Shown here in pieces: positions 38,236 to 54,287 of a DNA stretch of 64,000 bases (the first letter of the stretch is position 1; each line of letters begins with the position of its first letter). This stretch comes from Flavobacterium pisciphilum (GTDB taxonomy: Bacteria > Bacteroidota > Bacteroidia > Flavobacteriales > Flavobacteriaceae): positions 992,001-1,056,000 of the forward strand of contig NZ_JAJJMO010000001.1 of the NCBI RefSeq assembly GCF_020905345.1, read 5' to 3'. The translations under genes were made by a program, and so were the position numbers. The notes beneath the pieces were generated by a model. It did no database searches and was not told the DNA's origin. It was given only the letters and a program-made list of their open reading frames with translations.

Positions 38236-38252
38236 GAAAGTAAAATCTACTA

Positions 38253-38474
38253 TTATTCGGCAGTATTAATCTTTTGGTGCAATTGATTTAGCAAAACCTG
38301 GTATTTACTAATCTCGATTAAATCTTCGTCTTCTTCAGAGAAATCAAGCAATTCATCCAAAATATCACTTACTTCTACCAATTTATTATTCGCAGATTTG
38401 TTTTGTTTAGCAGCAATTAAATCTATAATTTCCTGAACGCTTTCTTTTAAACCGCTGAATTTATCTTTTTCCAT
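38253..38474 (-). CDS. Small acidic protein of unknown function
   Basis: 73 aa, largely helical and acidic (ELLDFSEEDEDLIEISKYQV). Conserved-looking start with an internal repeat of KQNKSANNKLVEVSDILDEL. No signal or motif I can name. Sits between the YchJ-type gene and a 50-aa lysine-rich gene, in what looks like one transcript of four genes (39183 to 37855). Confidence 0.6.
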   Translation of the reverse strand: MEKDKFSGLKESVQEIIDLIAAKQNKSANNKLVEVSDILDELLDFSEEDEDLIEISKYQVLLNQLHQKINTAE

Positions 38475-38485
38475 TTATATGTGTT

Positions 38486-38638
38486 TTATTTATCAGATGA
38501 AGATTTGTCTTCATTGAATTTCTTTACAATTTGTTTTAATTTCTCTTTACGTGCAAGTTCTGCCTGTTTAGCTTTGTCCTGTGCTTTGTGCAACTTATCG
38601 TTGTGCTTCTTGATATTCCTTTCGTTATTCCTTCCCAT
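38486..38638 (-). CDS. 50-aa lysine-rich small protein
   Basis: Short gene from ATG 38636-38638 to TAA 38486-38488. It reads MGRNNERNIKKHNDKLHKAQ and continues as a charged helix to DKSSSDK. The start overlaps the stop of the upstream 181-aa gene by one base (TAATG), which supports translation. Likely a single coiled helix that could bind nucleic acid or ribosomes; function unknown. Confidence 0.65.
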   Translation of the reverse strand: MGRNNERNIKKHNDKLHKAQDKAKQAELARKEKLKQIVKKFNEDKSSSDK

Positions 38639-39183
38639 TATTCTATCTCTTTTTTAATTTCTTCCAATGTTTTATTGGTAAAAATAAGTTCATTTATAAT
38701 TGATTTACGCAAAATAGCAATATCATCATAATCAAAATATTTTGCCCACGAAGTTAATTGCTGTAAATTCCTAATTTGCTTAATTCTTTTTGTTGTTTCA
38801 AAACTTGTTCTAAGTATTGCTTTATTATTGTACTCAGGATTATTTTTATGTTGATAATTAACACTGTTTTTATCAAAATCAGCTTCGATATAATATAATT
38901 TATCAATAGCATTATCAGGATAAAAAGAGCTCCAAGGTGCAAAACCTAGTTTAAATTTAGATTCTGTTTCTGGTTCCAAAGCGATTAAACGCCATTTACT
39001 ATTGGCCAATCTTCCCCAATGATTCGAAAAACGATACATCCCTAAATCTGAATAATAATAGGTGCTTCCGGCCTTACTTTCAAATTGAATTTTCAAACCT
39101 TCAACTTCTTTCTTCGTTACTTCCTGAAAAACACAAAATGTATTTTTGAACGAATTTGGATTTGGTCTAAAGTTTTTTTGCAT
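38638..39183 (-). CDS. Conserved hypothetical protein, 181 aa
   Basis: ATG at 39181-39183 is preferred; the longer form begins with a TTG. The sequence (FCVFQEVTKKEVEGLKIQFE, GSTYYYSDLGMYRFSNHWGR, KWRLIALE, then SSFYPDNAIDKLYYIEADFD) is mixed alpha/beta with a conserved NHWGRLA core and a C-terminal helix. I do not recognise a named family. A TATATTTG -7 element lies immediately upstream on this strand (39187-39194). Translationally coupled to the 50-aa gene. Confidence 0.65.
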   Translation of the reverse strand: MQKNFRPNPNSFKNTFCVFQEVTKKEVEGLKIQFESKAGSTYYYSDLGMYRFSNHWGRLANSKWRLIALEPETESKFKLGFAPWSSFYPDNAIDKLYYIEADFDKNSVNYQHKNNPEYNNKAILRTSFETTKRIKQIRNLQQLTSWAKYFDYDDIAILRKSIINELIFTNKTLEEIKKEIE

Positions 39184-39186
39184 GTG

Positions 39187-39244
39187 CAAATATACTCAGA
39201 TTGTCACGAACTCCCTAAACCAAACAATATATTGATTAACTTTG
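39187..39244. promoter_or_regulatory. Two divergent Bacteroidota -7 promoter elements
   Basis: TATATTTG on the minus strand (39194-39187) faces the 181-aa gene, and TAACTTTG on the plus strand (39237-39244) faces the 93-aa gene region. Both fit TAnnTTTG; no good -33 TTTG at standard spacing is seen. Confidence 0.5.
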
Positions 39245-39271
39245 CAGCATCAATTTTTAAATAAAAATATC

Positions 39272-39523
39272 ATGACAAAGGCTTCTCAAGAAAAAATGTT
39301 ACAAAAAGGAGTTTATACAGGAGTAATGGAGAAGGATGAAAATAACAATTATTTTTGTGGTGAATACCTTTTAGATTACAAGATAGCACATGCTAATCAC
39401 GTAGTTGGAGATTGGATTACTATAAAGTCTATAATCGAAAACCCTAGCGATATCAGTTATAACAAATATCCAAAAAAGTCAAAAAACTTTGACAAGGCAA
39501 ATAATAAACCAGAACAAAAATAA
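39272..39523 (+). CDS. Small hypothetical protein, 83 aa
   Basis: ATG 39272 (MTKASQEKMLQKGVYTGVME) is preferred over the upstream in-frame ATG at 39242, which would sit on the promoter element at 39237-39244. Contains NNYFCGEYLLDYKIAHANHV and a lysine-rich tail. No known domain. Monocistronic. Confidence 0.6.
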   Translation: MTKASQEKMLQKGVYTGVMEKDENNNYFCGEYLLDYKIAHANHVVGDWITIKSIIENPSDISYNKYPKKSKNFDKANNKPEQK

Positions 39524-39657
39524 ATCGATTATTTTCAAAGTTCTGAACTTTCATACTTAAGTTCATGCAAAAGGCATGCTTTTTAACTCTCAGAATCAAT
39601 ATTTTATATATTTTTTGAATATTTTTTACTACGAAAGTAAAAAGTTAAAAAAAAGTG

Positions 39658-39665
39658 TACCTTTG
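39658..39665 (+). promoter_or_regulatory. -7 promoter element of the J-domain/KTSC gene
   Basis: TACCTTTG matches TAnnTTTG; 70 nt upstream of the start codon. No clear -33 partner. Confidence 0.5.
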
Positions 39666-39735
39666 CAAAAAATTTGTCTTTTTTGAATTAAACAAATATT
39701 AATTTCAATCTAATAGACAAGTAGTTATCTTATTT

Positions 39736-40176
39736 ATGAAAAAAATAGTTGAATACCGCAAGTTACTAAATGTAGACAAAACTGCAGAATTAAAAGATTT
39801 AAAAACCATTTACCGTAATGCTATGAAAGAATGTCATCCTGACAAATTTCAAGGTAACGACGCTGGTTTGAAAGAAGCAGAAGAAAAAAGTAAATTAGTT
39901 ATTGAAGCATACCACTTTTTGGTAAGTATCAATCCTGAGACAATTAAATCAAACTTGCCAGAATATACTGAAACAATCTCTACTTCATCTATTACAGATT
40001 ACAAATTTGTAGAAGGTAGATTAATTATTGATTTCTCAAATGGTAGTGTTTACGAATACATCAGTGTACCTAAAGCTACTTACGTAAAAATGGTAAATGC
40101 AGATTCTCCTGGTAGATTTGCAAAAAGACATATTCTTAACTCTTTTACTTGGAGAAAGAAAACAAATCAAGACTAG
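39736..40176 (+). CDS. J-domain/KTSC-domain fusion protein
   Basis: 146 aa. Residues ~3-65 form a J-like domain (YRKLLNVDKTAELKDLKTIY, CHPDKF with the HPD motif that activates DnaK). Residues ~85-140 are a KTSC domain (SSITDYKFVEGRLIIDFSNG, VYEYISVPKATYVKMVNA, FAKRHI). KTSC domains usually stand alone or at protein ends; coupling to a J-domain suggests recruitment of Hsp70 to a KTSC target, which is inference. Monocistronic with its own terminator. Confidence 0.88.
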   Translation: MKKIVEYRKLLNVDKTAELKDLKTIYRNAMKECHPDKFQGNDAGLKEAEEKSKLVIEAYHFLVSINPETIKSNLPEYTETISTSSITDYKFVEGRLIIDFSNGSVYEYISVPKATYVKMVNADSPGRFAKRHILNSFTWRKKTNQD

Positions 40177-40197
40177 TTTTTATAGTTTTTATAGAAA

Positions 40198-40229
40198 AGC
40201 ATCCACCACTGGCGGATGCTTTTTTTTTG
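40198..40229 (+). terminator. Intrinsic terminator of the J-domain gene
   Basis: Stem AGCATCC-A-CC/GG-C-GGATGCT (one mismatch) with a T9 run. Confidence 0.85.
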
Positions 40230-40394
40230 CTACAAAAACACATAAAATATTGTTTTTTATTTTAGAATAAACCCAAAAGAGCATCATCTCCCGATTAAAA
40301 ACCCATCAAACAGACTGATTACGAAGTTTTTACCCTACAAAAAACTATAACAAAATTTTAGGTTACAAAATTATTTATGTCTTATAATTTTAAA

Positions 40395-40402
40395 TACTTT
40401 TG
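40395..40402 (+). promoter_or_regulatory. -7 promoter element of the DUF4369 gene
   Basis: TACTTTTG matches TAnnTTTG, 28 nt upstream of the start codon. Confidence 0.55.
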
Positions 40403-40429
40403 TTCCACAAATCAATTAACTAATTAATA

Positions 40430-41596
40430 ATGAAAAAAATATTTTTTTTACTTGCTGCTTCTATAGCAATAATTTCATGCAACAAAGTTAAAGACGGAGA
40501 ATACCTTATTACTGGAACTGCAAAAGGAATTGAAAACGGGAAAACTATCATCCTACAAACTCAAGATCCAGCTACAGGAGCGCCTATCTCTCTTGACACT
40601 GTAAAAGTTGAAAACGGAAAATTCGAAATTAAAGGTAAAGTTACTGAGCCTGCATTTCACATATTACAATTACAAGATGCTCAAGGTCCTATTCCTTTTA
40701 TCCTTGAAACTGGAGAAATTACAGTTGTTGTAGATAAAGACAGCATCCACAAATCTAAAATCTCTGGTACATACAACAATGATGAGTATGTAAAATTCAA
40801 TGATGAGCTTATGAAAGTTCAAAAGAAATTAGTTGATTTCCAGAAAAAAAACACTGCAACTATGAACACTGCTCAACAAGCTAAAGATACAGCAGTAATC
40901 AATGGTTTAATGAAAGAATTCATGAAAATCCAAGGTGATGTTCAAACTGAAACTAAAAATAAGTACACTACTTATGCTGAGTCTCACCCAAAATCTTTCA
41001 TCAGCGCATTAATCATCAAAGGAATGTTAAATGACCCTTCAACTGATTTGAAAAAAGCTGAAGCTATTTACACTAGTTTAGATGAATCTGTAAAGAACAC
41101 TAAACCAGGAAAAGAAATCAAAGAAAAAATCGGTCAAATGAAAATGCCTGCTGTTGGTGCTACTGCTCCTCCAGTTGGTAGCGCTAACTGAAGATCAGAT
41201 TTTTCTGCTCCTAATCCAGAAGGAAAAACGGTATCGCTTAAAGAAAGTTTAGGCAAAGTTACCATTGTAGATTTTTGGGCTTCATGGTGTGGACCATGTA
41301 GAAAGGAAAACCCAAATGTTGTAGCTATCTATAAAGAACTACATTCAAAAGGACTTAATATTATTGGTGTTTCTTTAGACAAAGATGCCAAAGCTTGGAA
41401 AGAAGCCATTGCAAAAGATAATTTAACTTGGACGCACGTTTCTAACTTAAAATTTTGGGATGAGCCAATTGCAGCTCAATACGGTGTTCAATCAATTCCT
41501 GCAACATTTATACTAGATGCATCAGGAAAAGTTGTAGCACAAGATTTAAGAGGCGATGAACTTAGAGCAAAAATTATTGAGCTTTTAGCTAAATAA
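40430..41596 (+). pseudogene. DUF4369-thioredoxin (TlpA/ResA-like) lipoprotein interrupted by an in-frame TGA
   Basis: The first 253 codons (40430-41191) encode a lipoprotein signal (IAIISCNKV) and a DUF4369 domain. At codon 254 is TGA (41189-41191). The same frame continues with no further stop to 41594-41596. The downstream part is an AhpC/TSA-thioredoxin domain: FSAPNPEGKTVSLKESLGK, VDFWASWCGPCRKENPN (cysteines at 41288 and 41297), SIPATFILDASGKVVAQDL. The TGA lies in a 27-nt block (41171-41197) that separates the A-P and D-F of the expected APDF motif. Without readthrough the product is a DUF4369 lipoprotein lacking the redox domain. No start codon suits separate translation of the thioredoxin part. 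A one-codon change or excision would restore a 379-388-aa protein. Confidence 0.85.
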
Positions 41597-41619
41597 TACC
41601 AATATTAGAATAAAAACAA

Positions 41620-41647
41620 AAAAAATCTCCCTAGTGGAGATTTTTTT
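41620..41647 (+). terminator. Intrinsic terminator after the thioredoxin-domain region
   Basis: Stem AATCTCC/GGAGATT with a CTAGT loop, flanked by A and T runs. Confidence 0.85.
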
Positions 41648-41726
41648 GTTTTAATCAATACCGAACACAAGTTCTTAACTTAAATGTCTAAAATGAGCTA
41701 ATAATAACCCATAGCGCATTTCAATA
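41620..41726 (+). repeat. Terminator-tail repeat, copy A
   Basis: Imperfect match to 41804-41909: both begin with the AAATCTCC hairpin, then share CGAACACAA, CAACTTAAAT-type and CTAATAATAAC-type blocks and end in ATTTCAAT. Confidence 0.75.
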
Positions 41727-41803
41727 TATTCCTGTGACACTAATTAGTAGAACTATCTTAAAAAATACTATGACAGAGTTTAAAAGCCAATTGACTTAAA
41801 GTG

Positions 41804-41909
41804 AAAATCTCCTCTGTGGAGATTTTTTTATTTTATCCAACATCGAACACAACTTTTCAACTTAAATCTCTAAAACGAGCCAATAATAACTCAATACAGT
41901 ATTTCAATC
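41804..41909 (+). repeat. Terminator-tail repeat, copy B
   Basis: Second degenerate copy of the 41620-41726 unit, with its own AAAATCTCC/GGAGATTTT hairpin (41804-41829) although no gene lies between the copies. Confidence 0.75.
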
Positions 41910-42317
41910 TAATCTTAGAACTCTCCTACTTGATACATCTAAAGAAATAACAATTCCAGATCTCAGGAATAATAAACTAAAACAAAATCACCTCCTCTAG
42001 TAAAAGATTATCATTTTATTCAATCTCATTTGTCCTGAATATCGTTAATAATTAAAAATTTCAGGAAGCTTTGATAACAAAACATCCTTCGCCTTCGATT
42101 ATTTTTCACATCATCTACATTTAAATCATCTAAAAAAAGCAATATTTCATCTAAGAGGTAGCGAAGTTAAAGTTGAATTTCTCCCATTTTCGGGCTAATA
42201 ATGCCAACATCTAAAAAAAAATTAAAAAAAATCACCTAGCCGCATCTTTTTATTTTATTCAATACCAACGATTTAAAAAACAACACAAAATAAACTTAAA
42301 ATTAAGTGTGATTTTTG

Positions 42318-42348
42318 TTTGCAGAATTAAAAAGTGTCCCTATATTTG
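42318..42348 (+). promoter_or_regulatory. Near-ideal Bacteroidota promoter of tRNA-Tyr
   Basis: TTTG at 42318-42321, a 19-nt spacer and TATATTTG at 42341-42348 exactly fit the Bacteroidota primary-sigma consensus. The tRNA starts 40 nt downstream. Confidence 0.85.
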
Positions 42349-42387
42349 CACCCGTCAAGCAGAACAACGCAAGACAAAACAAGCTTC

Positions 42388-42471
42388 GGGGAGATACTCA
42401 AGCGGCCAACGAGGGCAGACTGTAAATCTGCTGTGTGAACTTCGCAGGTTCGAATCCTGCTCTCCCCACCA
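42388..42471 (+). tRNA. tRNA-Tyr (anticodon GTA)
   Basis: Acceptor arms GGGGAGA and TCTCCCC pair fully; anticodon stem GCAGA/TCTGC encloses loop CTGTAAA with GTA at 42422-42424. A long variable arm follows, as in class II tRNA-Tyr, and the T arm contains GTTCGAATC. The 3' CCA (42469-42471) is encoded. A PcfJ-like pseudogene starts within 200 nt, marking this tRNA as the left border of an accessory region. Confidence 0.97.
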
Positions 42472-42502
42472 AAAAAGTCCTAATGAAAATTAGGACTTTT
42501 TT
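42471..42502 (+). terminator. Intrinsic terminator of tRNA-Tyr
   Basis: Stem AAAAGTCCTAAT/ATTAGGACTTTT around a short GAAA-type loop, then T-run. Confidence 0.88.
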
Positions 42503-42645
42503 TATGCTTAAAAACCAAAGTATTCTTCAAGGATTTGGATAAACACGAAAAGAAACCCGACAACCAAAAACAGTCCTCCCAAATTAAATAAAACACATTA
42601 CTTGTCAGCGAAAACTAAAATACAAGACTCTTTCAAGGAAATTGA

Positions 42646-43293
42646 ATGGCCTCAGTTTTTGATACCTGCGAAGGGTTCCAAATGGTACGCATTGTATACT
42701 CGTACAAGCAAATGAAAAGGGTTACACCCCTACATTTCCACAAGGAAGTGATGCATCATTGGATAACTTCAAAAGGCGAAGTACACACCATGTCTTTAAG
42801 TACAAAGGTATTTTCAAGTGTCTATCATGCATGGCAATATTATTCTGCTCTTGAAATCCGTTCAAAGGATTTTTAAAACTCCCCGAAATATCTAATCAAT
42901 CCTTATAAGATATTTCCAAAAATAAAAATTCACCCTGTCTTAAAAAGAAACGGTTTTAAAAGTGGTTTTCACAATGTCGCTCCGCAGATTCTCTTTACTT
43001 CCCTTTTAAAAGATTCAATAACAGAGACCCTTTTAAAATCCTCTCGGAATTCTCTTCTATCCTATTATCTACTTTCACAAGAACAAAATATCAGACAGAA
43101 CTAGCAGGCTGTTAAAACCTGCCTGAAATACAGTTATAAAATTAAGGATTTCAAAATATGGGAAGATTACATAGCCCTGCTCCGTTGGTTTAAGAAAGAC
43201 CTCAACTGTGCCTCTTTTGTCTGTCCTGAAAATCTTCATGAAGTTCACGATAAACTTGTGACTAAAAAAGGGAAAACAAAAAAGGTAATATAA
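42646..43293 (+). pseudogene. PcfJ-like mobile-element protein, pseudogene
   Basis: One reading frame holds the conserved blocks of the PcfJ family in order: FDTCEGFQMVRIVYSY, HFHKEVMHHWITSKGE, HPVLKRNGFKSGFHNVAPQI, LFTSLLKDSITETLLK, then IWEDYIALLRWFKKDLN and CPENLHEVHDKLVTKK, ending at 43291-43293. Two in-frame stops break it: TAA at 42874-42876 and TAG at 43102-43104. More stops lie upstream of 42646, where the zinc-finger-bearing N-terminus would be. PcfJ-like genes belong to conjugative or integrative elements, so this is the relic of one beside tRNA-Tyr. Confidence 0.8.
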
Positions 43294-43300
43294 TTTTAAG

Positions 43301-43330
43301 TAAAGCTGATAATTACATCGGCTTTTTTCG
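43301..43330 (+). terminator. Putative terminator behind the PcfJ-like relic
   Basis: AAGCTGAT and ATCGGCTT arms (with G-T pairs) around AATTAC, followed by T6. Confidence 0.5.
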
Positions 43331-43407
43331 GTGCAGACACTCCAAGGCAGGAGTATTCTTTAGATGAACTATTATCTTATGATTTTAGCTGGCATTTACA
43401 GATCGCC

Positions 43408-43870
43408 CTATTCAAGTTCAACGGCAAAACCAAGGCATTCCCAGTATTCTATCACCACATCTTCATGGTCTATTGTTTCTGCTCCATATCTTCCCGATCG
43501 AAAATTGAGCATTACTGAATCAGGTCCTAAAAACCAAAGCTCACCTCCCTGAAGTGCAGGTTCTCCAGCTGTAATATTACTATGACACACACATCCTCTA
43601 GCAGCCGCTGGGTTTGGCGTACTTTCCAGGATAACAAACAGCCCATTAACATCTATAATCCACAGATATCTATTTGATTAAATTAGTTCTAGTTGCAAAT
43701 TGCACATTATCTAAACCTGCACTGTTAATATGAATCAAATGGGATGCAAATGATATACATTCCCCAGTTCCTACCTTTTTTGAATTCTCTTGATTATCTC
43801 GGTTTACTCTCTTAAATGGCAATACTGCAGGTCCAAGTCTAGCTAATAAACTTTCAGTTGGTTTACTCAT
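43408..43870 (-). pseudogene. Last gene of the CHAT operon, ~155-aa protein with one frameshift
   Basis: Starts at ATG 43868-43870, three bases after the preceding stop. Frame one gives MSKPTESLLARLGPAVLPFK to RTNLIK and stops at TAG 43670-43672. The +1 frame continues at once (RYLWIIDVNGLFVILEST, AARGCVCHSNITAGEPALQG, GPDSVMLNFRSGRYGAETI) to TAG 43408-43410. The second part has no plausible start codon or ribosome site, so the two belong together. The junction reads ATC AAA TAG A; removing one A restores a single frame. It could be a mutation, an assembly error or programmed +1 shifting. No family recognised; mixed beta character, no signal peptide, one Cys-rich spot (CVCHS). Confidence 0.6.
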
Positions 43871-43873
43871 AGA

Positions 43874-44545
43874 CTAAAATTTTACATCTCCTTTTTCCAA
43901 AACCTCTTCAACAAGATTAACATCGGCGTTCTCTATATCAAGCAGGGATGCTAGCGGAATCTTCTCTAGATCAGAATTCCTGTATACAATCCTTTCATTT
44001 GTGGTTGCAAATACTTTTCTATTTTTCGGGCTGATATAAAAATTCAGGCCTGAATAGGAAAATGAATCATAGATAAACCTTTCATTGATAATATTATGAT
44101 TAACAGCTAACTGTTCGCTAAAATACTTTTCACCTAAGATTACAGCCAATTTCCATAGAACCTTTTCTTCAGCTAAATAACGGCTTGGCTTGAAAAGAAT
44201 GGAAAATTCTACATCGCTGTAAGGAGACTTTAATTCCACGAATTTATAAACTAAATCAGATTCCAATAGAATATTGATTTTTGAGTTACTTATATATGTG
44301 ATTCTGGTATTCGCGCGGTAACTTCCTTGGTAGAAAAAATTTTCAAATTCAGTATTGACTATCCCTCTAATATCGACACTTCCATCTTGAATTAATTTAG
44401 AGTATTCTAATAAATTCCTTTTAGGATACAGTTTAAAAGTTAGACCGAGTTTTAAAGATCTAGAAACTTTACTCAGCAGACGTCTTTTGGTGTCTTTGGC
44501 TAATTCAGGCTTAATTGGTACACTTAATCCGCCTTTAAATTTCAT
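43874..44545 (-). CDS. Uncharacterised CHAT-operon protein, 223 aa
   Basis: Cytoplasmic, basic N-terminus (MKFKGGLSVPIKPELAKDTK) followed by beta-rich sequence (LGLTFKLYPKRNLLEYSKLI, INILLESDLVYKFVELKSPY) and an acidic C-terminus. No signal peptide, no known motif. It lies 20 nt downstream of the 53-aa gene and 3 nt upstream of the frameshifted gene, so it is within the CHAT operon. It might be an adaptor or a pro-protein substrate of the CHAT protease, but nothing in the sequence shows this. Confidence 0.65.
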   Translation of the reverse strand: MKFKGGLSVPIKPELAKDTKRRLLSKVSRSLKLGLTFKLYPKRNLLEYSKLIQDGSVDIRGIVNTEFENFFYQGSYRANTRITYISNSKINILLESDLVYKFVELKSPYSDVEFSILFKPSRYLAEEKVLWKLAVILGEKYFSEQLAVNHNIINERFIYDSFSYSGLNFYISPKNRKVFATTNERIVYRNSDLEKIPLASLLDIENADVNLVEEVLEKGDVKF

Positions 44546-44565
44546 ACTTACGTTTGCCGGTTGCT

Positions 44566-44727
44566 TTAAAGTACCATGTTTTTTTTAGAGTTAGGTTCCA
44601 CTACCCATATTTTGGACAAATGGACTCCAACTGGCTGCAAATAAACATAGTTCTCCTTTAATTCTCCGATTGCCGCAAACCCTTCAGAATTAATTTTTTC
44701 CGTATATACTTTTGCTTTTACACTCAT
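44566..44727 (-). CDS. Small CHAT-operon protein, 53 aa
   Basis: ATG 44725-44727 to TAA 44566-44568: MSVKAKVYTEKINSEGFAAI, then GELKENYVYLQPVGVHLSKI and a short tail. Predicted all-beta. It fills the gap between the CHAT gene (ending 44810) and the 223-aa gene, with normal spacing on both sides. Unknown function; a small binding partner or inhibitor of the protease is possible. Confidence 0.6.
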   Translation of the reverse strand: MSVKAKVYTEKINSEGFAAIGELKENYVYLQPVGVHLSKIWVVEPNSKKNMVL

Positions 44728-44809
44728 CAAGCTTCTTTTTTACTAAGATAATACATTCCTCTTAAATATTTTTTTCTTTACAGAAAATTCAGTGCAAAGG
44801 TTTGCTGAA

Positions 44810-47005
44810 TCAGCGGGAAAAGTTTGCTTTTTCAAAATCCTCAATATGTTTTTTAAACAGCACTAAATCTCCCCTTCCTATATTGGTGTAATACAAAAAT
44901 TCATAGGCCTTAGGCTTTAAAATATTCGACTTTTTTGCAGGAAGAGATTTTATGAATCGTTCTGCATCCTTGAAAACATGTTTTCTTCTTGAAAAAACCA
45001 AAATATCCTGCGCCAGTTTAAAATACTCTTTTTTAATCTCTTTATCTGCCTTTTCGTCTAGCGGTAAAGGGGCATAAATTCTGTGCAGAAAGGTAGAACG
45101 GATGTTATAACATATGTATTCCAACCAGTTTTTGAATCTTCCTTCGCGGGCTGCTTTATCTAAACTGTTAAGGATGCTTATATAGGCCATAGTAGCATTA
45201 TCTACCTCGACCGGTATATAAGTTGAAGTAACTGATCTTGACCCGCACTGCAGAAAAGCATTAGCAATTGGGTTAAACGTACCATAGGTAGGTGCAGTCC
45301 CGCAGGCTGAAAGAAATACCAAAGGAACAGATATGCCATTTTCAACAATAAACTCATAAGTCAGGTCATCACTGCCCATCTGCAAATAGGTGTCTTTCAT
45401 TTCTTCATTTACTCTACCATGAGTATCTATAATCAAAAAATCTGGATTATGTTTTTTTAGTACCCGCATAAAATCTGCATTCGATATGCAGGTCTCCACA
45501 ATAAAATTGTGTTCATCTGCCATCTCAAATAATACAGTATGCCACTTTATAAAATCATCGTCGTCTGTACCCAGTACTATTAATGTTTTCGAAATGATGT
45601 CTTCAGAGATTCGAAAATCCAGCATGGAATTAATCGCAAATGATACCAGATGGTTATTAAAACTTGTTTCTGGGATTCGGGTAATATCATGAGTGAAGGA
45701 TAATGGGACATTATCTAACCGCAGCCATTCAAATGGGAGGTCCGTGACTGAAATGATTTGTGAATTCCTACCCACCAAATAGCTGCTGAATTCAGTACTG
45801 AATACCGATTCCGAAATACAGCTTCCTATCCTGGCCAAAGTATCGCTTAGTTTCAGCTGCGCCTTTAATGTTGCAAATTTATGAAAATGCTTTGGTGCTA
45901 TAAAAGATAAATCCCTGTAAAGGGTCTTTCCTTTTATAGGCAGCCTAACGTATGGCATCAAATTGAAACTAGCAAGAAGAAAACACGTACTGTCCAAAAA
46001 TTTCATTCTATCCTGCATTATCTTCCCCCCTGCACTGTACAGTACTCTGTTTTCAGCGCTATCAATAGCTGTACTGACATAATTGGATGACTGTTCAACC
46101 CGAAGCGCGGACATAATCTTTTTAAATATAGGGTCGGTTTTATCTGAGTAAAAATCCTCAATATCGGGATTATGGAAAGGAAAACAGAAAAAAATTGGAT
46201 TAAGCTGACCCCGCTGTTGTTCAAAATTTTGAAATAACTTAAGTCTGGAAAACAGCTTGTCAAAAGCCTTAAGCTGATCAATAAACAAATTTAAGCGCTC
46301 AAAAGTATCTTGGTTTTTAATGGCATGGCGGCTAATATCTGTAAGCTCTTCACTTGTCACCTCATCTGGAGTTCCAAAATTTCCTAAGTAATTGTTGTAA
46401 GTGAGGAAATTTGTTTTGGCGGGAAGAAAGTTGCTGTGGTATTTTAACTCATTCTGCTCATAATCAGTAGATAAAAACACTCTCGGGTACTCATGTATTA
46501 TATTGAAATGACTGTAAATTTCTTCATCTTGGGTAAGTTCGCAAAGCAGATTAAATATGCACGCCTTATTAGAGGATTCATCAAACTCTAAATTTAAAAA
46601 ATAAATAAATTTAAAGTTTAAGTGCTTAATAATGGCTTTAAATTCCATGTCTTCCGGCCTGTTCTCCTCGAACAGTACAATAACCAATTGCTTTGTTTCT
46701 TCAAGCAGCTTCAATATTAATTGTTGATCGGATCTTTTATAAAACGCAACGGTATAAGGATTGTAGTTTAAGTAATTAACCTCGGATATGGCATACAACT
46801 CTGGATCATACAGCTGATAAAGGTTTTTGGGCAAAAATTTTAAATAATCAATAGAATTAAAGTTAACATTTCTCAGCGGGACAAATGGCAGTTCTAATTC
46901 ATATTCATCAATCAATACAATGTAAAGGATGTTGGTGGGTTCTATATTCCTAATTCTCATTATAAAATCTATATTATTACTCTGATTACCAACTTTAACA
47001 AACAT
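44810..47005 (-). CDS. CHAT-domain (caspase-like) protease
   Basis: 731 aa, no signal peptide or membrane segment. Residues ~440-640 form the CHAT domain: TLIVLGTDDDDFIKWH, DFLIIDTHGRVN with catalytic H529, PLVFLSACGTAPTYG with catalytic C568, then NAFLQCGSRSVTSTYIPVE. The spacing of His and Cys (39 residues) fits the caspase-HetF-TPR family. The N-terminal ~430 residues match nothing I know and may be the sensor. The last ~90 residues are helical. CHAT proteases act in bacterial defence and programmed death by cutting partner proteins. It heads an operon with three small genes and lies next to Gabija. Specific trigger and substrate unknown. Confidence 0.85.
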   Translation of the reverse strand: MFVKVGNQSNNIDFIMRIRNIEPTNILYIVLIDEYELELPFVPLRNVNFNSIDYLKFLPKNLYQLYDPELYAISEVNYLNYNPYTVAFYKRSDQQLILKLLEETKQLVIVLFEENRPEDMEFKAIIKHLNFKFIYFLNLEFDESSNKACIFNLLCELTQDEEIYSHFNIIHEYPRVFLSTDYEQNELKYHSNFLPAKTNFLTYNNYLGNFGTPDEVTSEELTDISRHAIKNQDTFERLNLFIDQLKAFDKLFSRLKLFQNFEQQRGQLNPIFFCFPFHNPDIEDFYSDKTDPIFKKIMSALRVEQSSNYVSTAIDSAENRVLYSAGGKIMQDRMKFLDSTCFLLASFNLMPYVRLPIKGKTLYRDLSFIAPKHFHKFATLKAQLKLSDTLARIGSCISESVFSTEFSSYLVGRNSQIISVTDLPFEWLRLDNVPLSFTHDITRIPETSFNNHLVSFAINSMLDFRISEDIISKTLIVLGTDDDDFIKWHTVLFEMADEHNFIVETCISNADFMRVLKKHNPDFLIIDTHGRVNEEMKDTYLQMGSDDLTYEFIVENGISVPLVFLSACGTAPTYGTFNPIANAFLQCGSRSVTSTYIPVEVDNATMAYISILNSLDKAAREGRFKNWLEYICYNIRSTFLHRIYAPLPLDEKADKEIKKEYFKLAQDILVFSRRKHVFKDAERFIKSLPAKKSNILKPKAYEFLYYTNIGRGDLVLFKKHIEDFEKANFSR

Positions 47006-47533
47006 AAAACAGAATAATAATGTAAGTCATTGGCCTAAATGTTCGCCAATATAATTAATTACCAAACTAGCTAAATAGGTAGAATTACCTGTTTTATAAT
47101 TATTTTTCAAATATTCTTAAGCATATTTATGCACTTTTTTGTGACTAAATCTAGACAAATCAACACTCTACAAAAAACAAATAACTCAATATCAACAATT
47201 TGTTAAACTAAATTCGAATATCTAATAAAAACTAAAAATAACTTCATGGAAATTTAAAGAAATTTCCAAATTAAATAGTGAAGGGAAACATCAATGGGAA
47301 CATAACCAAGATTAGATTGAAAATCAGGTAATTATACGCATACAAATTTCAATCCTCTATAGTATATTTGAAAATACACTTTACAGTATAAATATACTTA
47401 TCTTAATACAAAAATAAAACATTTTTGAAACACGCAGTTTTATAAATGCCTACGTGTAAAATTAGGCACACAAAGTTAAAAAACAGGTTATCATCATAAA
47501 ATCAATTTATTACAGATTAATAATTTACAATCT
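47006..47533. other. Divergent control region between the CHAT operon and the envelope operon
   Basis: 528 bp, AT-rich. A perfect inverted repeat GGAAATTT-AAAG-AAATTTCC lies at 47248-47267, roughly midway and usable as an operator for both operons. A second, weaker symmetry, ACACG...CGTGT, spans about 47432-47458. No open frame of note. Confidence 0.5.
47248..47267. promoter_or_regulatory. Perfect 8-bp inverted repeat, candidate shared operator
   Basis: Arms GGAAATTT and AAATTTCC separated by AAAG. About 243 nt from the CHAT start and 267 nt from the start of the envelope operon. No regulator gene is present nearby, so the binding protein is unknown. Confidence 0.4.
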
Positions 47534-49174
47534 ATGATCAAAACTTTAAATTATCTCTTGTTTCTCTTTGCTTTTATGATTAGTTCAATAAGTGCGCAGA
47601 CACCTGTAGCTGGACAGGCACCACAAAGTACTGCTACAGCCCAGCCTCCTGTTAAAAAAGTAGTCACGCATTATGGACCAATTGTTACCAATTCTTCAGT
47701 AAATCTAACAGTCAATATTGGTGATGTAGGATTTACGGGAAGTCTTCCTTTTGACGAAGCTTTCACTATAAATATTCCCGTCAATGAATCAGTACTCAAT
47801 GTCGATATTTGGTACCGATCAAAACCAAAACCAATCAATATAAACCCACCCACAGATACTGACGGCGAAAACGGCTGGCATAAATTATCTGGGTATCCAC
47901 TGGGCAATTCGGTCAATTATCAATTTGCGGTACCTGCATTAAGGCCAAATAAATACTATCAATTTTATTTCAAATATAAAAGAAAACCTGACGCGCTTGA
48001 CAAAGCCTTTTTGACAACTTTTACAAAAGAAACTATAATCCCGGAGCTAAACAATAAAGCTATTGCTACAATACACAGAAGGCTAAATTTTGAATTTACC
48101 AACGGTGAAGTTTCGACAATGATTGAAGCTATTAAAACCAAAATCAGGAAGTATGTTGCGGATAAAGACAAAGGCTTGACAGTTGATTTTTCGATGATTA
48201 ACGATAGACAGTATCAAAACCTGTTCAATTCGCTAAAGAATATAAGTAATGCATTTGAGACCAGTGAAGTTTACAAGAGAACAATTAACTCCAATACTGC
48301 ATCTTTTACAACTACTCATCAGAATTTTAGAGCCTATAGAAACACTTATAACGCTTCAGGACAAACAGAGGAGATTCATTCTAATGTTGAGCATATGGAT
48401 AATATATTATTAGCTTTACAGGCATTTCTTTCTCCTCCATTTAATGCGACAACACCTGGCCCTGTACTGAACTACACTGATAATTGTCAGTTTATTTTAC
48501 AACAACTGGAAATGATTAAAATAGATGGGGATCCAGCTTATATGAGCTTGAAAGATACAGTTATTGGTTTTGTAAAATCAAACATGACCAAGATTGCATT
48601 TTACTATCAGTCACTTAATGATGCATCCGATATAACCAATGCCCAGTCTAATAGTTTTGTAGAGATTGTAGTATCTAATTTATCTAATAATATCGTTATT
48701 GATGGTACAACAATTTCGGGGGATTTTGACACTTCAGCAAGTTATTACATAAGTGGTGACTTAGGTGTTGCTGCAATACCTCAGTTTTCTAAAATTGTAC
48801 CTTATTTTGGCACTAATATCTATTTTAGGCCTGTCAACAAAAATATTACACTCGCCGGTTCGGAAGATGATTTTTTTTGGGACGGTTTCGGAAGGCGCTT
48901 TTCACTAATGTTTGGTATTTCAATCTCATCGATAGCAAAAACAAATTATAGAACAGACCTTTTCGGAGGCAATTTTAATTTGGTCACCGGTGCGGGCTTT
49001 AGAATTACTGATTATTTTAGACTTAACGCTGGAGCACTGTGGTATCAGAAACTAAACGAGAACCCGCTCAATAGTAACAGTAATATTCAGCCTGCTTTTT
49101 TTGTATCCTTTTCAATAGACCTTGATGTAAAAACTGCTTTAGATAATCTATTCCCTACCCGTAAAGCTCCTTAA
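47534..49174 (+). CDS. Secreted protein with predicted outer-membrane beta-barrel end
   Basis: 546 aa. Signal peptide MIKTLNYLLFLFAFMISSIS to SAQ. The first ~130 mature residues look like an Ig/fibronectin-type beta domain (VNLTVNIGDVGFTGSLPFDE, YYQFYFKYKRKPD). Residues ~190-390 are helical (QNLFNSLKNISNAF, EEIHSNVEHMDNILLALQAF). The last ~140 residues have alternating strands typical of an outer-membrane barrel (FSKIVPYFGTNIYFRPVN, FGRRFSLMFGISISS, YFRLNAGALWYQKLN, PAFFVSFSIDLDVKTALD). First gene of a three-gene operon divergent from CHAT. Function unknown; an envelope anchor for its operon partners is inferred. Confidence 0.65.
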   Translation: MIKTLNYLLFLFAFMISSISAQTPVAGQAPQSTATAQPPVKKVVTHYGPIVTNSSVNLTVNIGDVGFTGSLPFDEAFTINIPVNESVLNVDIWYRSKPKPININPPTDTDGENGWHKLSGYPLGNSVNYQFAVPALRPNKYYQFYFKYKRKPDALDKAFLTTFTKETIIPELNNKAIATIHRRLNFEFTNGEVSTMIEAIKTKIRKYVADKDKGLTVDFSMINDRQYQNLFNSLKNISNAFETSEVYKRTINSNTASFTTTHQNFRAYRNTYNASGQTEEIHSNVEHMDNILLALQAFLSPPFNATTPGPVLNYTDNCQFILQQLEMIKIDGDPAYMSLKDTVIGFVKSNMTKIAFYYQSLNDASDITNAQSNSFVEIVVSNLSNNIVIDGTTISGDFDTSASYYISGDLGVAAIPQFSKIVPYFGTNIYFRPVNKNITLAGSEDDFFWDGFGRRFSLMFGISISSIAKTNYRTDLFGGNFNLVTGAGFRITDYFRLNAGALWYQKLNENPLNSNSNIQPAFFVSFSIDLDVKTALDNLFPTRKAP

Positions 49175-49185
49175 ACTCAATCAAT

Positions 49186-49539
49186 ATGTCATATATAGAA
49201 CTAAGTAAAATTACAGCAAACCCTGAGACTATTATTGCACCTTCACTAGTAAGGTTAGAATTTAGCCTTAGCGCAGATAAGGGAACTCCTGTCATAATCT
49301 ATTATCAATTAAATACCGATAATAATATTTATTTCCAACTAAGCAATGGTTCTTTAGTAAAAGAAATCGTTAAGCAGATAACTATGCCAGCTGCAACAAA
49401 GCCATTTGCAGACAGCGTTTTGCTTAAGAAAATTGATGTTTCACCAGCGCAAGATCATGCTTACTGCTTTATTTACGTCCAGGCTGTGAATAAATTGAAT
49501 GAGTTAAGCGATATTAAACATTGCATGGTGAATTTATGA
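49186..49539 (+). CDS. Small beta-sandwich-like protein in the envelope operon, 117 aa
   Basis: Begins 11 nt after the barrel protein and overlaps the lipoprotein start by ATGA (49536-49539). No signal peptide. Sequence LVRLEFSLSADKGTPVIIYY, then DHAYCFIYVQAVNKLNE suggests a single Ig-like or fibronectin-like fold. Strict coupling on both sides indicates a shared role with its neighbours, although without a signal it should stay in the cytoplasm unless exported differently. Confidence 0.65.
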   Translation: MSYIELSKITANPETIIAPSLVRLEFSLSADKGTPVIIYYQLNTDNNIYFQLSNGSLVKEIVKQITMPAATKPFADSVLLKKIDVSPAQDHAYCFIYVQAVNKLNELSDIKHCMVNL

Positions 49540-50798
49540 AAACAAAAAAAATAATTGGCCTAATACTAGGGATAGTCATAGCCTTCAATTCTTGTTCTGC
49601 AGAAGATCAGTTAGATTTTACCGATGTAATTAAATTTGAGCATTTAGAGCAGGAGAACCTAATTGCGGATGGTGTCGCAACTCTTCCAATTACAGTAAAA
49701 ATTAAAGATGGCGCAGATCCCGACAAAAGAACTGTAATATTTACTACGGATTTGGGGGTTTTTACAAATAATGCCACAACAATTACCTTAGTAGCAGATG
49801 CAAATAATACAGCAACAGCTTACCTTAAGAGTGCTGCACAAGGTACAGCTACGATTAAAGCGAATGTTTCAACATTTAATATCACAAAAACAATAATTTG
49901 TACCTATTCAAATACGCTAACTTTTACAAATGCAGCAAATGAGAACCTTATTGCTGATAATTATTCCGCCTTAAATATTACAGGGCATATCAATCCTGCT
50001 ACAGAATCAGATAAACGTTTGATAGTTTTTACAACAGACCTTGGAACTTTTACCAACAATACTAATACAATCTCCATAGCTGCTGATTCTAACGGAAACG
50101 CAAGCACATATCTTAAAGGTAATATAGTCGGTGGAGCGACTGTCAAAATTGCTAATCAAAATCAATCGGTAACGAAAAATGTTATTTTTACGTCACCTGA
50201 TGCAAATACTATTTTTACTTTCGGAATAGTTAATCACAACATTCCTGTTGACGGCGTTAGTTTTATTAAAATACCTATTCAAGTCAATACCAATCTGCCT
50301 GTAGGAAATCGTTCAGTTGCTTTCACAACTGATTTTGGATCGTTCACGACAGGGAATGCAACAATTCCTGCAGACCCTTCGGGCAATCTTGCTGCTTATT
50401 TAAAAAGCTCGGTTGCTGGATCAGCTCATATAGCTGCTACCTGTAACTCAATTACTCGTTACCTTACCGTCAATTTTGTGCCTGCTATACCCGATTTTAT
50501 ATTATTATCAGCGAACGGCACCCTTGAAAACGGAAGTAATCATAATCTCTCCATTTTAATTTCAGCGAAACGTAATATAGGTATTCCTACACCAGGATTT
50601 GGGTTTGTTTATAGTGCAATCGATAGTAACGGAAGCAGTATAGGCTCTTTTACAAATGGGTCGTTGAGTAATCAAACCGGTGAAGCTGCTGTAGTTTACA
50701 CTGCTGGAAATACTTCCTATACTGGAAATGTAACCATTATTGTAGCGCTTAAAGATCATCCACATATTTCAACAAGTGTTAATGTGCTGATAAATTAA
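49536..50798 (+). CDS. Surface lipoprotein with four Ig-like (invasin/BIg-type) repeats
   Basis: 420 aa from ATG 49536; the longer in-frame start at 49521 lies inside the upstream gene. Lipobox GIVIAFNSCSAED with C20. Four ~90-residue repeats follow, each with a signature such as VIFTTDLGVFTNN, VFTTDLGTFTNN, VAFTTDFGSFTTG and, diverged, SSIGSFTNGSLSN, then a TAYLKS or VVYTAG strand. This is the pattern of Big_1/invasin-like domains that build rods on the cell surface. Stop overlap ATGA with the 117-aa gene. Role: likely adhesion or a scaffold exposed outside, inferred. Confidence 0.75.
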   Translation: MKTKKIIGLILGIVIAFNSCSAEDQLDFTDVIKFEHLEQENLIADGVATLPITVKIKDGADPDKRTVIFTTDLGVFTNNATTITLVADANNTATAYLKSAAQGTATIKANVSTFNITKTIICTYSNTLTFTNAANENLIADNYSALNITGHINPATESDKRLIVFTTDLGTFTNNTNTISIAADSNGNASTYLKGNIVGGATVKIANQNQSVTKNVIFTSPDANTIFTFGIVNHNIPVDGVSFIKIPIQVNTNLPVGNRSVAFTTDFGSFTTGNATIPADPSGNLAAYLKSSVAGSAHIAATCNSITRYLTVNFVPAIPDFILLSANGTLENGSNHNLSILISAKRNIGIPTPGFGFVYSAIDSNGSSIGSFTNGSLSNQTGEAAVVYTAGNTSYTGNVTIIVALKDHPHISTSVNVLIN

Positions 50799-50898
50799 AT
50801 ACTTTTTGGGTTAATTTTCAGATTAATGATGCAAGTCGAATCATAATTGATTTATGTCATTTAAAAAACACATAGTAAAAGAACTGTTAATTAAAAGG

Positions 50899-52548
50899 TT
50901 ATTTTTTTGATTTCCAACGTAGTTCTTCAATTCCATTTATAGACATGAACTCTGAATCGCAAGCTTTTTTAAGCTGGTATTCATGATTCGTTCTTTGTGT
51001 TGAATTAAGTAAGATGCAAGCTTTAATCGCCCTAGTTAACCCTACATAGTGCAGATTCAAATCTTGAATATAATTAGGATAAACGGGATTATCAAAATCA
51101 TTATTTTGTCTAGGTTTCTTAGATGGCAATATCCATTCATAGAGATCAAGATGGATGACAAGTTCAAATTCCAAGCCTTTAGATTTATGCAATGTCATAA
51201 TATTTATCTCATTTTCATTTGCTGGCTTATATGAATTTAATTCCTCTGAATTATTGAGTGTTTTTTCAAGAAGATCAATTGACTCCTGATTTTTCAGTGA
51301 TGGAGAAATAATTTCAGCAATTTCAACAAAGACATTTCTAAGATATTTAAAATTTATTTTGTCCTTTGAGGTTAGTTCTTGAATTTGTTTTTTGCAATTT
51401 TTTAATTTTAGAAGATCACTTTTACAAAATCTATTATAGGTTGTAAAAACTTCAATCACATCAATAAAAGTGTATTCTTTATGAAAAATATAATGTAACA
51501 GTTTAGAAAATATTATAGACCAAATATTTAAATTAGAATCTAATTCATTTGTTATGAAAAATCTATTTTCCGTCTTAAGAGTATCCCGAATTATATTTGC
51601 CGTACGGCCATTTCTAACTAAAACAGCTATTTGATTATTTCTATCTAATGAAAATATTTTTTTTAGCTTTATAATATTCTCATCAATATATTTAGCTATT
51701 GAAGATTCATCTCCATTTATTTTTTGGCTAAAAACTTTTGATTCAACATCTGGAATTAATTCAGTTTTACTGTTCAATAAATAATTAGAGTAATTAATTA
51801 TTGAGGAATGGCACCGGTGATTTTTGTCTAACTTAAAATATTTAAAATTTTCATTTTTTGAAAGTTCGTCAAGAAATTTTGAATCTTTAAAAGAAAAAGC
51901 GAAAATTGATTGATTTAAATCTCCAACCGCTATTCCCCGTATTCCTAAATTATTTATCTTCAGAAATATTTCATGCTGATTATTTCCAGAATCCTGATAT
52001 TCATCTATATAAATGTAGCGGTATTTAGATTTAAGATACTTTTGGCACGCTAATGAATTATTTAAAATATAATTTGACAAAAGCCCAATAGTTTCAATTA
52101 GAATTATTCCTTGCAAAAAAAAAGAGATTAAAATATCTGATCTAGCTTCACTTAATTCTTCAATAGATATATTTCTATCTATCCATTCTAAGTCTTTAAC
52201 TTCAAAATCTTCCAATGATGAACCTTTGATAATCTTTATTTCATTTCTAGGAATACCAAACATCAATTTACCAAAAGGAATCAATATTTCAGATATATTG
52301 AATTTATCTATTGTACCAAAAAATGACGATTTAGGATCTTCTCCATTTGATAAACTCCTGTTTTTTAATTCGTTACTTGCTTTGTTTGTATATGATATCG
52401 CTATAATGCCTTCATGATTTTTTAAATGAACTAGATTCCTCTTAATTTTTTGTGATACAACAAATGTTTTGCCACTACCAGGTGCAGCAATAACCACTGA
52501 GTTTCCATCATAATCTATGATGATTTTTTGTTGTTCAGTTGGCTCCAT
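50899..52548 (-). CDS. gajB: Gabija protein GajB (UvrD-like helicase)
   Basis: 549 aa superfamily 1 helicase. Walker A AAPGSGKTF (K27), DEYQD box in YIYIDEYQDSGNN near residue 187, motif III VGDLNQSIFAF, motif V/VI LHKSKGLEFELVIHLDLY and YVGLTRAI. It follows gajA with a one-base overlap at 52548, the arrangement of Gabija. In Gabija, GajB associates with the GajA tetramer and acts with it against phage by nucleic acid cleavage and nucleotide depletion. Somewhat longer than the type example. Its stop is 100 nt from the convergent Ig-lipoprotein gene. Confidence 0.88.
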   Translation of the reverse strand: MEPTEQQKIIIDYDGNSVVIAAPGSGKTFVVSQKIKRNLVHLKNHEGIIAISYTNKASNELKNRSLSNGEDPKSSFFGTIDKFNISEILIPFGKLMFGIPRNEIKIIKGSSLEDFEVKDLEWIDRNISIEELSEARSDILISFFLQGIILIETIGLLSNYILNNSLACQKYLKSKYRYIYIDEYQDSGNNQHEIFLKINNLGIRGIAVGDLNQSIFAFSFKDSKFLDELSKNENFKYFKLDKNHRCHSSIINYSNYLLNSKTELIPDVESKVFSQKINGDESSIAKYIDENIIKLKKIFSLDRNNQIAVLVRNGRTANIIRDTLKTENRFFITNELDSNLNIWSIIFSKLLHYIFHKEYTFIDVIEVFTTYNRFCKSDLLKLKNCKKQIQELTSKDKINFKYLRNVFVEIAEIISPSLKNQESIDLLEKTLNNSEELNSYKPANENEINIMTLHKSKGLEFELVIHLDLYEWILPSKKPRQNNDFDNPVYPNYIQDLNLHYVGLTRAIKACILLNSTQRTNHEYQLKKACDSEFMSINGIEELRWKSKK

Positions 52549-54287
52549 TATTCAGATACCAATTCAACACATCTTAATAGGGGTTTCGCTATCAAATCAT
52601 TCTTTAGCTTTCTTAAAGTATCTTTATTTGTTCTTAAAAATTTATACATCATTATTGCTTTTCGTTTTTGCATTTTTGATACTACAGTAACAACGTTGTC
52701 TTCTCTATAAAACTTTTTTAAGTCTTCTGATATTGGGCTATTTATTAAGTCATTTTCTAAATCAATAGTTGATAAATACATATCATACAATTTTAGCTCT
52801 TTGATGATATTTTGTGCTGAATCAATGTTATTTTTTTGAGGATCGCGTGTCACTTCCCATGTTACATTAGGGAGGTGTTCATCTAAGATACGTTTAGTAT
52901 TCCCGTCAGAAAAATCTAAAATTGACAAGCATCTGTGAATCCCTGCAAATCTCCATCTCTCTTTGTTTGGGACTTTAAAGATATCATTATCTGTTCTCAA
53001 AACCCAATCAATATTTAGTGAATTTAGAATATCTACGTATGTTTTAAAGCCTATTCCATCTACCATTAAAATACTAATATTTAATCTATCAAGATCTATA
53101 TCCAATTGTTTAGCTAGCGTCTTGTATAGAATTTCCTCAGATGGACCTTCAACTAACAATATAACATTTGCAAAAAATGCTTCAGCAGGAATTATACTCA
53201 TTCTATATCCAAAATCTTGAAAAGCATCATCAATAATTTCTGAACAACCATTCGATGCAGCTTTCGTATTATTACCTTTATTATATAATCTAATAATAGA
53301 ATTTGGACTAAACTCAGAAGCTATTTGCGGGGAATGGGTCGTTATAAAAACTTGACCAAAAATTTCCTCATTTAGATAATCAGCTAATTTGCGTTGCTGG
53401 TGTGGATGTAAATGTGCTTCTGGTTCTTCAATGCAAAAAATTGTAACCTCGGACAGGTTTTCTTCGCGCAATTGATTTCTAGATGCCCAAAGTGATAAAT
53501 AAATTTGATTTAAACGTCCATCACCACCAATTAGAACAGATTGTTCTCCTGATTTTGCAGAGATAGATACATTATTTATAAAATTGTCGAGACTTGAGGT
53601 TACAGAATCAAATACTACGGATTGCTGATTATGATGTAATGAAAGTTTTGAGAGTTCTTCATTGATAGTTGTTGTTGCATTTTTTATAAAATTTAATTTT
53701 GGAATGTTAGAATCAATATTTTCTAAGTTTTGTTCAACTTTGAGGTATAATAAATTATCAAATTCTATTTCCTCATGTGACCGATTTTCTTTCGCAATTT
53801 GAAATAAATATGCCTTTTCTTTATTAATATATTTTGTTAAATCCCTTCTACTACCTATATATTTAAGATTTAATACTTTTCTGTAATATCGATCTTCAAT
53901 TTCTTCTAATTTTTTAGTAGAAGATCCTGCATAGAGTTTATAACTTTTTGTTTTTGTTTTTTCATCTCTAAATGCTTCATATCTCAAATAAAAAATATCA
54001 TCATCGCTAATTTTTCCTTTAAGTTTCGATACAATACAATCATCTGTAACATCCTGAAATTTTAAAGTTATCCTAAAATTGTTAGTTTCTTCGAAAGCGT
54101 AAAAATCACTATCATTTGGCTCTATATCATAATCTGAAAGACTTCTATCCAGTAATAATCTCACAGCCCAAATTAAATTAGTTTTTCCAACATCATTGGC
54201 TCCGATTATTAAAGATTTTTCATTGAAGTTTATTGTAGAATTTTTAAAGTTCCGAAATCCTATTAATTTGATTTGTGACAGAATCAT
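52548..54287 (-). CDS. gajA: Gabija protein GajA (OLD-family ATPase/TOPRIM nuclease)
   Basis: 579 aa, the normal size for GajA. N-terminal ABC-type ATPase with IKLIGFRNFK and Walker A GANDVGKTN (K35), ABC/Walker B IFCIEEPEAHLHPHQQRKL, switch THSPQIAS. C-terminal TOPRIM with ILLVEGPSEE (E380), VDGIGFKTY and LRTDNDIF acidic clusters. OLD-like nuclease paired with a UvrD-like gene directly downstream identifies Gabija. First gene of the pair, with ~1.2 kb of gene-free DNA upstream. Confidence 0.9.
   Translation of the reverse strand: MILSQIKLIGFRNFKNSTINFNEKSLIIGANDVGKTNLIWAVRLLLDRSLSDYDIEPNDSDFYAFEETNNFRITLKFQDVTDDCIVSKLKGKISDDDIFYLRYEAFRDEKTKTKSYKLYAGSSTKKLEEIEDRYYRKVLNLKYIGSRRDLTKYINKEKAYLFQIAKENRSHEEIEFDNLLYLKVEQNLENIDSNIPKLNFIKNATTTINEELSKLSLHHNQQSVVFDSVTSSLDNFINNVSISAKSGEQSVLIGGDGRLNQIYLSLWASRNQLREENLSEVTIFCIEEPEAHLHPHQQRKLADYLNEEIFGQVFITTHSPQIASEFSPNSIIRLYNKGNNTKAASNGCSEIIDDAFQDFGYRMSIIPAEAFFANVILLVEGPSEEILYKTLAKQLDIDLDRLNISILMVDGIGFKTYVDILNSLNIDWVLRTDNDIFKVPNKERWRFAGIHRCLSILDFSDGNTKRILDEHLPNVTWEVTRDPQKNNIDSAQNIIKELKLYDMYLSTIDLENDLINSPISEDLKKFYREDNVVTVVSKMQKRKAIMMYKFLRTNKDTLRKLKNDLIAKPLLRCVELVSE

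Follow-up and report, generated by a model that had tools for sequence, protein, structure and literature searches.

Borvo is defined as a single-gene system, and we know of no substrate for it. Its protein is BovA, and the accessible part of one paper tabulates the system as a CHAT protease defence system (PMC10952713); a 2024 paper, in the portion available, describes Borvo as poorly understood and its activation as unclear, with phage DNA polymerase or its complexes as the suspected trigger (PMC11348598). In type III-E CRISPR, according to the available text of PMC10028731, CASP-sigma is freed from inhibition by Csx30 when the CHAT protease Csx29 cleaves the latter. Here we describe a locus within a 64,000-nucleotide stretch of the Flavobacterium pisciphilum genome (the window; positions 992,001 to 1,056,000 of contig NZ_JAJJMO010000001.1), in which a gene for a CHAT protein is followed by two small genes, designated X and Y. 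The CHAT–X–Y unit is a new variant of Borvo, with a CHAT protein that is itself of known kind. Because CHAT is united with X and Y, we class the unit as a Borvo variant and not as standard, single-gene Borvo. No description of such a unit was found in the accessible texts of the largely open-access literature on CHAT proteases, which is weak evidence of absence.

A BovA-type CHAT gene and its union with X and Y

The PADLOC model BovA (PDLC03831) matches the CHAT protein with an E-value of 7e-45, from residue 22 to residue 719 and from profile position 5 to 714 of 720, and it also matches six of the six CHAT relatives scanned. By this full-length profile match, the protein belongs to an already known family: it is a complete but diverged BovA, the protein of the Borvo defence system, and shares about 16 to 19% identity with the aligned rhizobial BovA proteins. 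A first-pass annotation of the DNA had called the CHAT protein uncharacterised and its large N-terminal part unassigned; neither description survives the BovA match. That annotation was right about the 731-aa open reading frame (ORF) with its intact H529/C568 dyad: Pfam covers the CHAT part alone of this protein (1.3e-7), and the dyad is invariant across seven aligned proteins, namely six relatives and the window CHAT. The true start probably lies at 46960, which would give 716 aa instead of 731, because the ATG of the closest relative and the onset of DNA similarity both fall there.

This closest relative is a locus of Flavobacterium sp. 245 (L013), whose CHAT protein is 77% identical to that of the window. 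The operon of L013 has the same order, and its X and Y are each one intact ORF, of 284 and 156 aa. When window positions 38000-56000 were compared with L013 by blastn, window 43406-46962 aligned with L013 8002-11569 at 74.5% identity over 3580 columns, and the flanks of this block were dissimilar. The genomic places also differ: Flavobacterium sp. 245 has the region matching the window's left flank and tRNA-Tyr on contig C12 and CHAT–X–Y on C10. Between the window and L013, the ratio of non-synonymous to synonymous divergence (dN/dS) is 0.085 for CHAT, the two pieces of X have 0.127 and 0.13, and the C-terminal piece of Y has 0.125; these values are only rough because dS reaches 0.77 to 1.68. 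The conservation of the block, with 74% DNA identity plus low dN/dS, exceeds chance, and the comparison gives good support to the view that CHAT, X and Y form one three-gene evolutionary unit. The three genes share one strand, and X and Y are separated by 3 nt.

In the window, X and Y both appear to be split by a frameshift, since each is a single ORF in L013. The X frameshift, near an A tract at 44579-44586 (an 8-base homopolymer), cuts off the N-terminal piece; unlike the X lesion, the Y frameshift lies outside any such tract. A profile of eight stand-alone X C-terminal domains matches the 223-aa X piece of the window at 9.9e-12, and the stand-alone Y profile matches the C-terminal Y piece at 8.6e-37 and the Y of L013 at 2.9e-45. 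The first-pass annotation had described four genes forming one system, from the list of ORFs. Its gene order and common strand hold, as does its view of the last gene as frameshifted, given the single 156-aa ORF in L013; the number of genes is three, its '53-aa' ORF (54 aa from TTG) and its 223-aa ORF corresponding to one 284-aa gene there. The proposal of one system stands as far as the evolutionary unit is concerned; as a working system in the window genome, where X and Y are broken, it is not supported.

Loci with CHAT and loci with the X–Y pair

Among 18 genome loci gathered by a CHAT alignment search, only L013 has X and Y. In all, L013 was set against 23 other CHAT loci (L007-L012 and L014-L030), relatives found by tblastn, within which the BovA scan covered L007-L009, L011, L012 and the L004/L027 contig. 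X–Y is best described as an add-on of one Borvo branch, outside Borvo in general, because it adjoins the only close CHAT homologue found (77%) and is absent at the 23 more distant loci. Absence of the small genes beside close CHAT homologues, which the first-pass annotation named as grounds for refutation, thus gives a split outcome: they are present at L013 and missing at the more distant loci. Only L020 and L021, among the 23 loci, have a same-strand gene of at least 80 aa within 100 nt downstream of CHAT, and the L028 contig ends 123 bp past CHAT. When up to six neighbours from each CHAT locus were compared all against all by blastp, four similarities linked different loci, and no family recurred at most of them. 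The CHAT ORF is broken in L015 and short in L023 (377 aa).

The CHAT gene is rare, being found in 1 of 299 genomes of the family by protein search; the BovA model matched 2 of 395 genomes of the phylum, the source genome counting in both figures. In a plasmid collection, CHAT occurs in 10 records, six of which were examined, and a search of viral contigs with CHAT and with the 223-aa X piece found nothing related to either. Some CHAT loci have other neighbours. In a Bacteroidales genome (L020:9669-10655), an unnamed 328-aa gene lies 13 nt downstream of CHAT and is possibly a different partner; in an uncultured Chlorobiaceae (L027:5960-9221), a CBASS-type cyclase lies 122 nt 3' of CHAT (PADLOC, 3.3e-121). 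The SMODS-type cyclase behind CHAT in L004/L027 is a different gene from the 223-aa X piece. Upstream of the intact CHAT–X–Y of L013 (L013:3308-7920) is a Tiamat (TmtA) gene, matched from profile position 292 onward (4.2e-71) and adjoined by an ORF that we labelled transposase-like by eye; this gene lacks its front, probably owing to an insertion element.

The X–Y pair has a distribution of its own. Searches with Y matched 3 of 296 and 4 of 395 genomes in two phylum samples, the window's own genome being in both counts, and 11 of 200 genomes in one family. Eight of these 11 were kept after removal of two false matches (L064 and L065, inside genes labelled by eye as isopropylmalate-synthase-like) and one contig edge (L063), none of which is counted in the 12 X–Y pairs discussed here. 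In one genus of that family, Y is patchy (5 of 36 genomes, all five already among the 11), and two further families gave 1 of 86 and 1 of 4, each the already known genome. X lies immediately upstream of Y at 12 of 13 clear loci, and the pairs fall into three settings: stand-alone (8 loci), in a HATPase/methylase cluster (2) and behind CHAT (2). At L063, the neighbour of Y is an unrelated divergent gene, and X seems to have been lost. A short-chain dehydrogenase-like gene stands directly next to this Y (L063:2-1183); in L057 it is on the far side of X.

Plasmids gave only weak alphaproteobacterial matches to Y, none of them with the L036 Y as query, and no match to X; viral contigs held no Y relative, nor did a phage collection that was searched with Y alone. 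The 223-aa piece was found in 2 of 150 genomes of the genus, its own and a 6.6e-4 match in a 4750-aa frame, the latter taken as chance. One of the weak Y matches is a gene on a Rhizobium plasmid (L038:2596-4640), which the stand-alone Y profile finds at 5.6e-14; behind it lies a 470-aa gene labelled HTH/ImmA-like by eye.

Profile comparisons show that X keeps one C-terminal domain, with an N-terminal part that varies with the setting. Among 10,752 frames, the profile of eight stand-alone X C-terminal domains recovered both other kinds of X, with values of about 1e-11 for the CHAT type and about 1e-16 for the REC type. The other X/Y profile had its own members as training set, so we quote this held-out test, in which the column where the X domain starts was picked on an alignment containing L013. 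Residues 1-172 of the L013 X, compared with all X proteins outside CHAT loci, gave a best value of 0.16. The REC label of the X proteins in the HATPase/methylase clusters (L035 and L036) is tentative because it is based on sequence motifs and one Pfam match, to Response_reg_2 in one X, of 0.26.

The pair is unnamed in the libraries searched (Pfam and PADLOC), in keeping with the initial statement that the small genes match no nameable family. In Pfam, the best E-values were 0.022 over 12 X rows and 0.086 over 11 Y rows. PADLOC, searched with the window pieces and with X and Y of L013, L035 and L036, gave no match for the X and Y of these three loci; in the PDB, the Y profile had no match and the X profile nothing credible. 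The NCBIfam search covered the window pieces except the C-terminal Y piece. Three candidate matches were rejected: SMODS in the 223-aa piece (0.057), seen in 1 of 12 X rows; IS110 in the 54-aa piece (0.0035), with 16.5 bits against a cut-off of 180; and Internalin J against the X profile (0.0057), for which no stretch passed.

Genomic setting of the window operon

The operon lies between a tRNA-anchored relic of a mobile element and a full Gabija pair, as originally reported: the tRNA-Tyr, the PcfJ-type relic and both Gabija genes are confirmed (Table 1). An ORF within the relic (42646-42876) shares 58% identity over 76 aa with a PcfJ protein of 434 aa from a genome of the same genus. Flavobacterium sp. 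245 has an intact tyrosine integrase behind the same tRNA-Tyr (L078:748-2434), together with further genes that we take to be conjugation genes, and the counterpart site is thus occupied by another element. Because a PcfJ-type relic in the window and an integrase in the L013 genome follow it, we take this tRNA-Tyr to be an integration site. A search of 41.5-58 kb revealed no repeat of the tRNA end. The left flank of the window is 78-79% identical to Flavobacterium sp. 245, equal to its identity with six same-genus genomes (76-81%). Gabija is, by its PADLOC matches, a second defence system in the same accessory stretch.

Apart from the CHAT–X–Y block, the only blastn match to L013 is a 160-base transposase-like fragment (window 54865-55023). 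This fragment also resembles many dispersed copies in same-genus genomes and is surrounded by a direct repeat of 158 bases (54719-54876 and 55243-55400, 77%). Further along, window 55460-62425 encodes a 2321-aa multidomain synthase of polyketide or polyunsaturated-fatty-acid type, with ketoacyl synthase, acyltransferase, two carrier domains, KR and an NMO-like start.

Table 1 Features of the window and loci carrying the X–Y pair
Feature	Position or locus	Strand	Basis or extent
tRNA-Tyr, edge of accessory stretch	42388..42471	+	ARAGORN
Relic of PcfJ-type mobile-element gene	42631..43274	+	Dispersed similar copies in same-genus genomes
DNA similarity block shared with Flavobacterium sp. 245	43406..46962	-	blastn; CHAT start to Y stop
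Gene Y, C-terminal piece	43408..43677	-	Open frame; 60-aa ORF 43408-43590; 80% identical over 60 aa to L013 Y
Gene Y, N-terminal piece	43670..43870	-	66-aa ORF ended by frameshift; 55% identical over 66 aa to L013 Y
Gene X, remainder with conserved C-terminal domain	43874..44545	-	223-aa ORF; 71% identical to L013 X
Gene X, N-terminal piece	44566..44730	-	54-aa ORF from TTG; 72% identical over 50 aa to L013 X start
CHAT protease gene, BovA-type	44810..47005	-	731-aa ORF; PADLOC BovA, Pfam CHAT, dyad
gajB of Gabija	50899..52548	-	PADLOC GajB 5.5e-186
gajA of Gabija	52548..54287	-	PADLOC GajA 9e-227
X–Y alone among housekeeping genes	L044, L056-L062		8 loci
HATPase protein, REC-like X, Y, cytosine methylase, Vsr	L035, L036		2 loci; families scanned in L036 only
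CHAT–X–Y	Window, L013		2 loci

Readings of the CHAT–X–Y unit and related systems

We favour, with a probability of roughly 0.38, the reading that CHAT–X–Y is a variant of Borvo whose BovA-type CHAT protease governs an effector module of two genes, X restraining Y. It is proposed because the gene order is fixed, the N-terminal part of X changes and Y is broken more often than X: of the 12 pairs, four have a broken Y, each with a lesion of its own (an in-frame stop in L056 and in L061, a frameshift in L062 and in the window), and one has a broken X (the window). Y would be a harmful effector, held inactive by the C-terminal domain of X, and the N-terminal part of about 170 aa seen only behind CHAT would be the docking and cutting site for the protease. 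Infection would activate CHAT, CHAT would cut X, and the freed Y would stop the cell, a scheme for which the cutting of Csx30 by Csx29 offers a published parallel; in the methylase-linked version, phosphorylation involving the HATPase protein and the REC-like N-terminal part of X would take the place of cleavage. More tentatively, X–Y could be a plug-in effector module whose repressor X has an exchangeable input domain, served by CHAT (cutting), by HATPase/REC-like proteins (phosphorylation) or by no partner. If true, the plug-in reading makes CHAT–X–Y a protease-triggered toxin-antitoxin defence and gives one Borvo branch a defined substrate, and X–Y ties the protease system to the HATPase/methylase cluster via one shared output. 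With a candidate substrate in X and a candidate effector in Y, this Borvo branch opens the question of activation to a cleavage assay.

Several observations weigh against protease control of an X–Y effector module. Just two CHAT–X–Y loci are known (the window and L013), apparently both from one genus, and the X and Y profiles find nothing at any of the 23 other CHAT loci. The N-terminal Y piece has a laxer dN/dS (0.52 over 66 codons), and the excess of broken Y (4 of 12 versus 1 of 12, the window being in both) is small and not significant. The Y of L063, which runs off its contig, has no X beside it, and the weak alphaproteobacterial Y-like genes of L037 and L038 likewise lack X. No fold was obtained for Y. 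In the available text of PMC10028731, the partner freed from Csx30 is a sigma factor, and Csx30 fragments are non-toxic in Escherichia coli.

That both frameshifts are assembly errors and the operon is intact is very improbable: the 8-base homopolymer at the X lesion is a common site of sequencing slips, but no such run underlies the Y lesion, three relatives also have a broken Y, and the assembly consists of 2 contigs with a rated completeness of 99.99%. The window has 28 ORFs of at least 200 aa, and the 47 comparable homopolymer runs inside them leave each one unbroken, in a count that by its nature omits broken genes; these harmless runs make systematic assembly error less likely. Both X and Y being frameshifted, the branch downstream of CHAT is therefore probably dead here, and the window CHAT may act alone or be decaying. 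An intact CHAT beside broken X and Y would also be expected if X–Y were simply an addiction pair, a toxin-antitoxin module complete in itself, that had come to lie behind a Borvo gene, with CHAT defending alone and never touching X. X–Y standing alone among housekeeping genes at 8 loci, its patchiness (5 of 36 genomes of one genus) and the 23 loci where CHAT, which matches the Borvo model by itself, lacks X–Y all agree with such a pair. We nevertheless regard this as rather unlikely, as the long N-terminal part of CHAT-linked X is shared by no other X, and the three genes stayed together in two genomes without extra flanking DNA.

A pair that signals or regulates, in which cut or phosphorylated X frees Y to alter gene expression or act on DNA, is a real alternative because the Csx30 partner is a transcription factor, through which Csx29–Csx30 acts (PMC10028731, available text). 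The second X–Y setting, a HATPase/REC-like cluster with a methylase, and the existence of a Y without X (L063) accord with it. However, Y matches no DNA-binding or sigma-factor family in Pfam, and 3 of 8 stand-alone pairs have a broken Y beside a retained X, repeated damage that is more in line with a costly protein; we consider a regulatory role unlikely.

Compared with described systems, CHAT–X–Y is closest to Borvo, with which it shares the full-length profile match, the CHAT dyad and neighbouring defence genes; it differs in that X and Y follow the window CHAT, whereas the other CHAT loci examined lack both. The 'Borvo-like' two-gene form of Streptococcus thermophilus is another kind of variant, because it is made of two BovA subunits (PMC12322248, accessible part). 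With Craspase (Csx29–Csx30–CASP-sigma), the unit has in common a CHAT protease encoded with a candidate substrate or inhibitor and a third protein (PMC10028731, in the part available). Unlike Craspase, it is not accompanied by a gene resembling Cas7-11 or Csx30 in the window ORFs read at 38000-54000 (where no scan with Cas models was made), X and Y match no PDB chain well, and X has no Csx30-like PDB match. The HEF_HK/Response_reg_2 systems of PMC8011034, which are two-component-like and include a C5-methylase and Vsr, resemble, as far as its available text goes, the clusters of L035 and L036, in which the REC-like X and Y are accompanied by a HATPase protein, a cytosine methylase and Vsr. They differ in that the L036 HATPase protein has no HEF_HK match and Response_reg_2 reaches only 0.26, in one X; that text does not mention CHAT, the window operon has no HATPase gene, and CHAT-type X has no receiver match in Pfam. 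Type II toxin-antitoxin systems share with X–Y two short, tightly packed genes in fixed order and with patchy occurrence, X standing directly upstream of Y in 12 of 13 cases. One Y lacks X, and neither the Pfam and PADLOC searches nor a fold search, which used low-confidence models, placed X or Y in an established toxin or antitoxin family.

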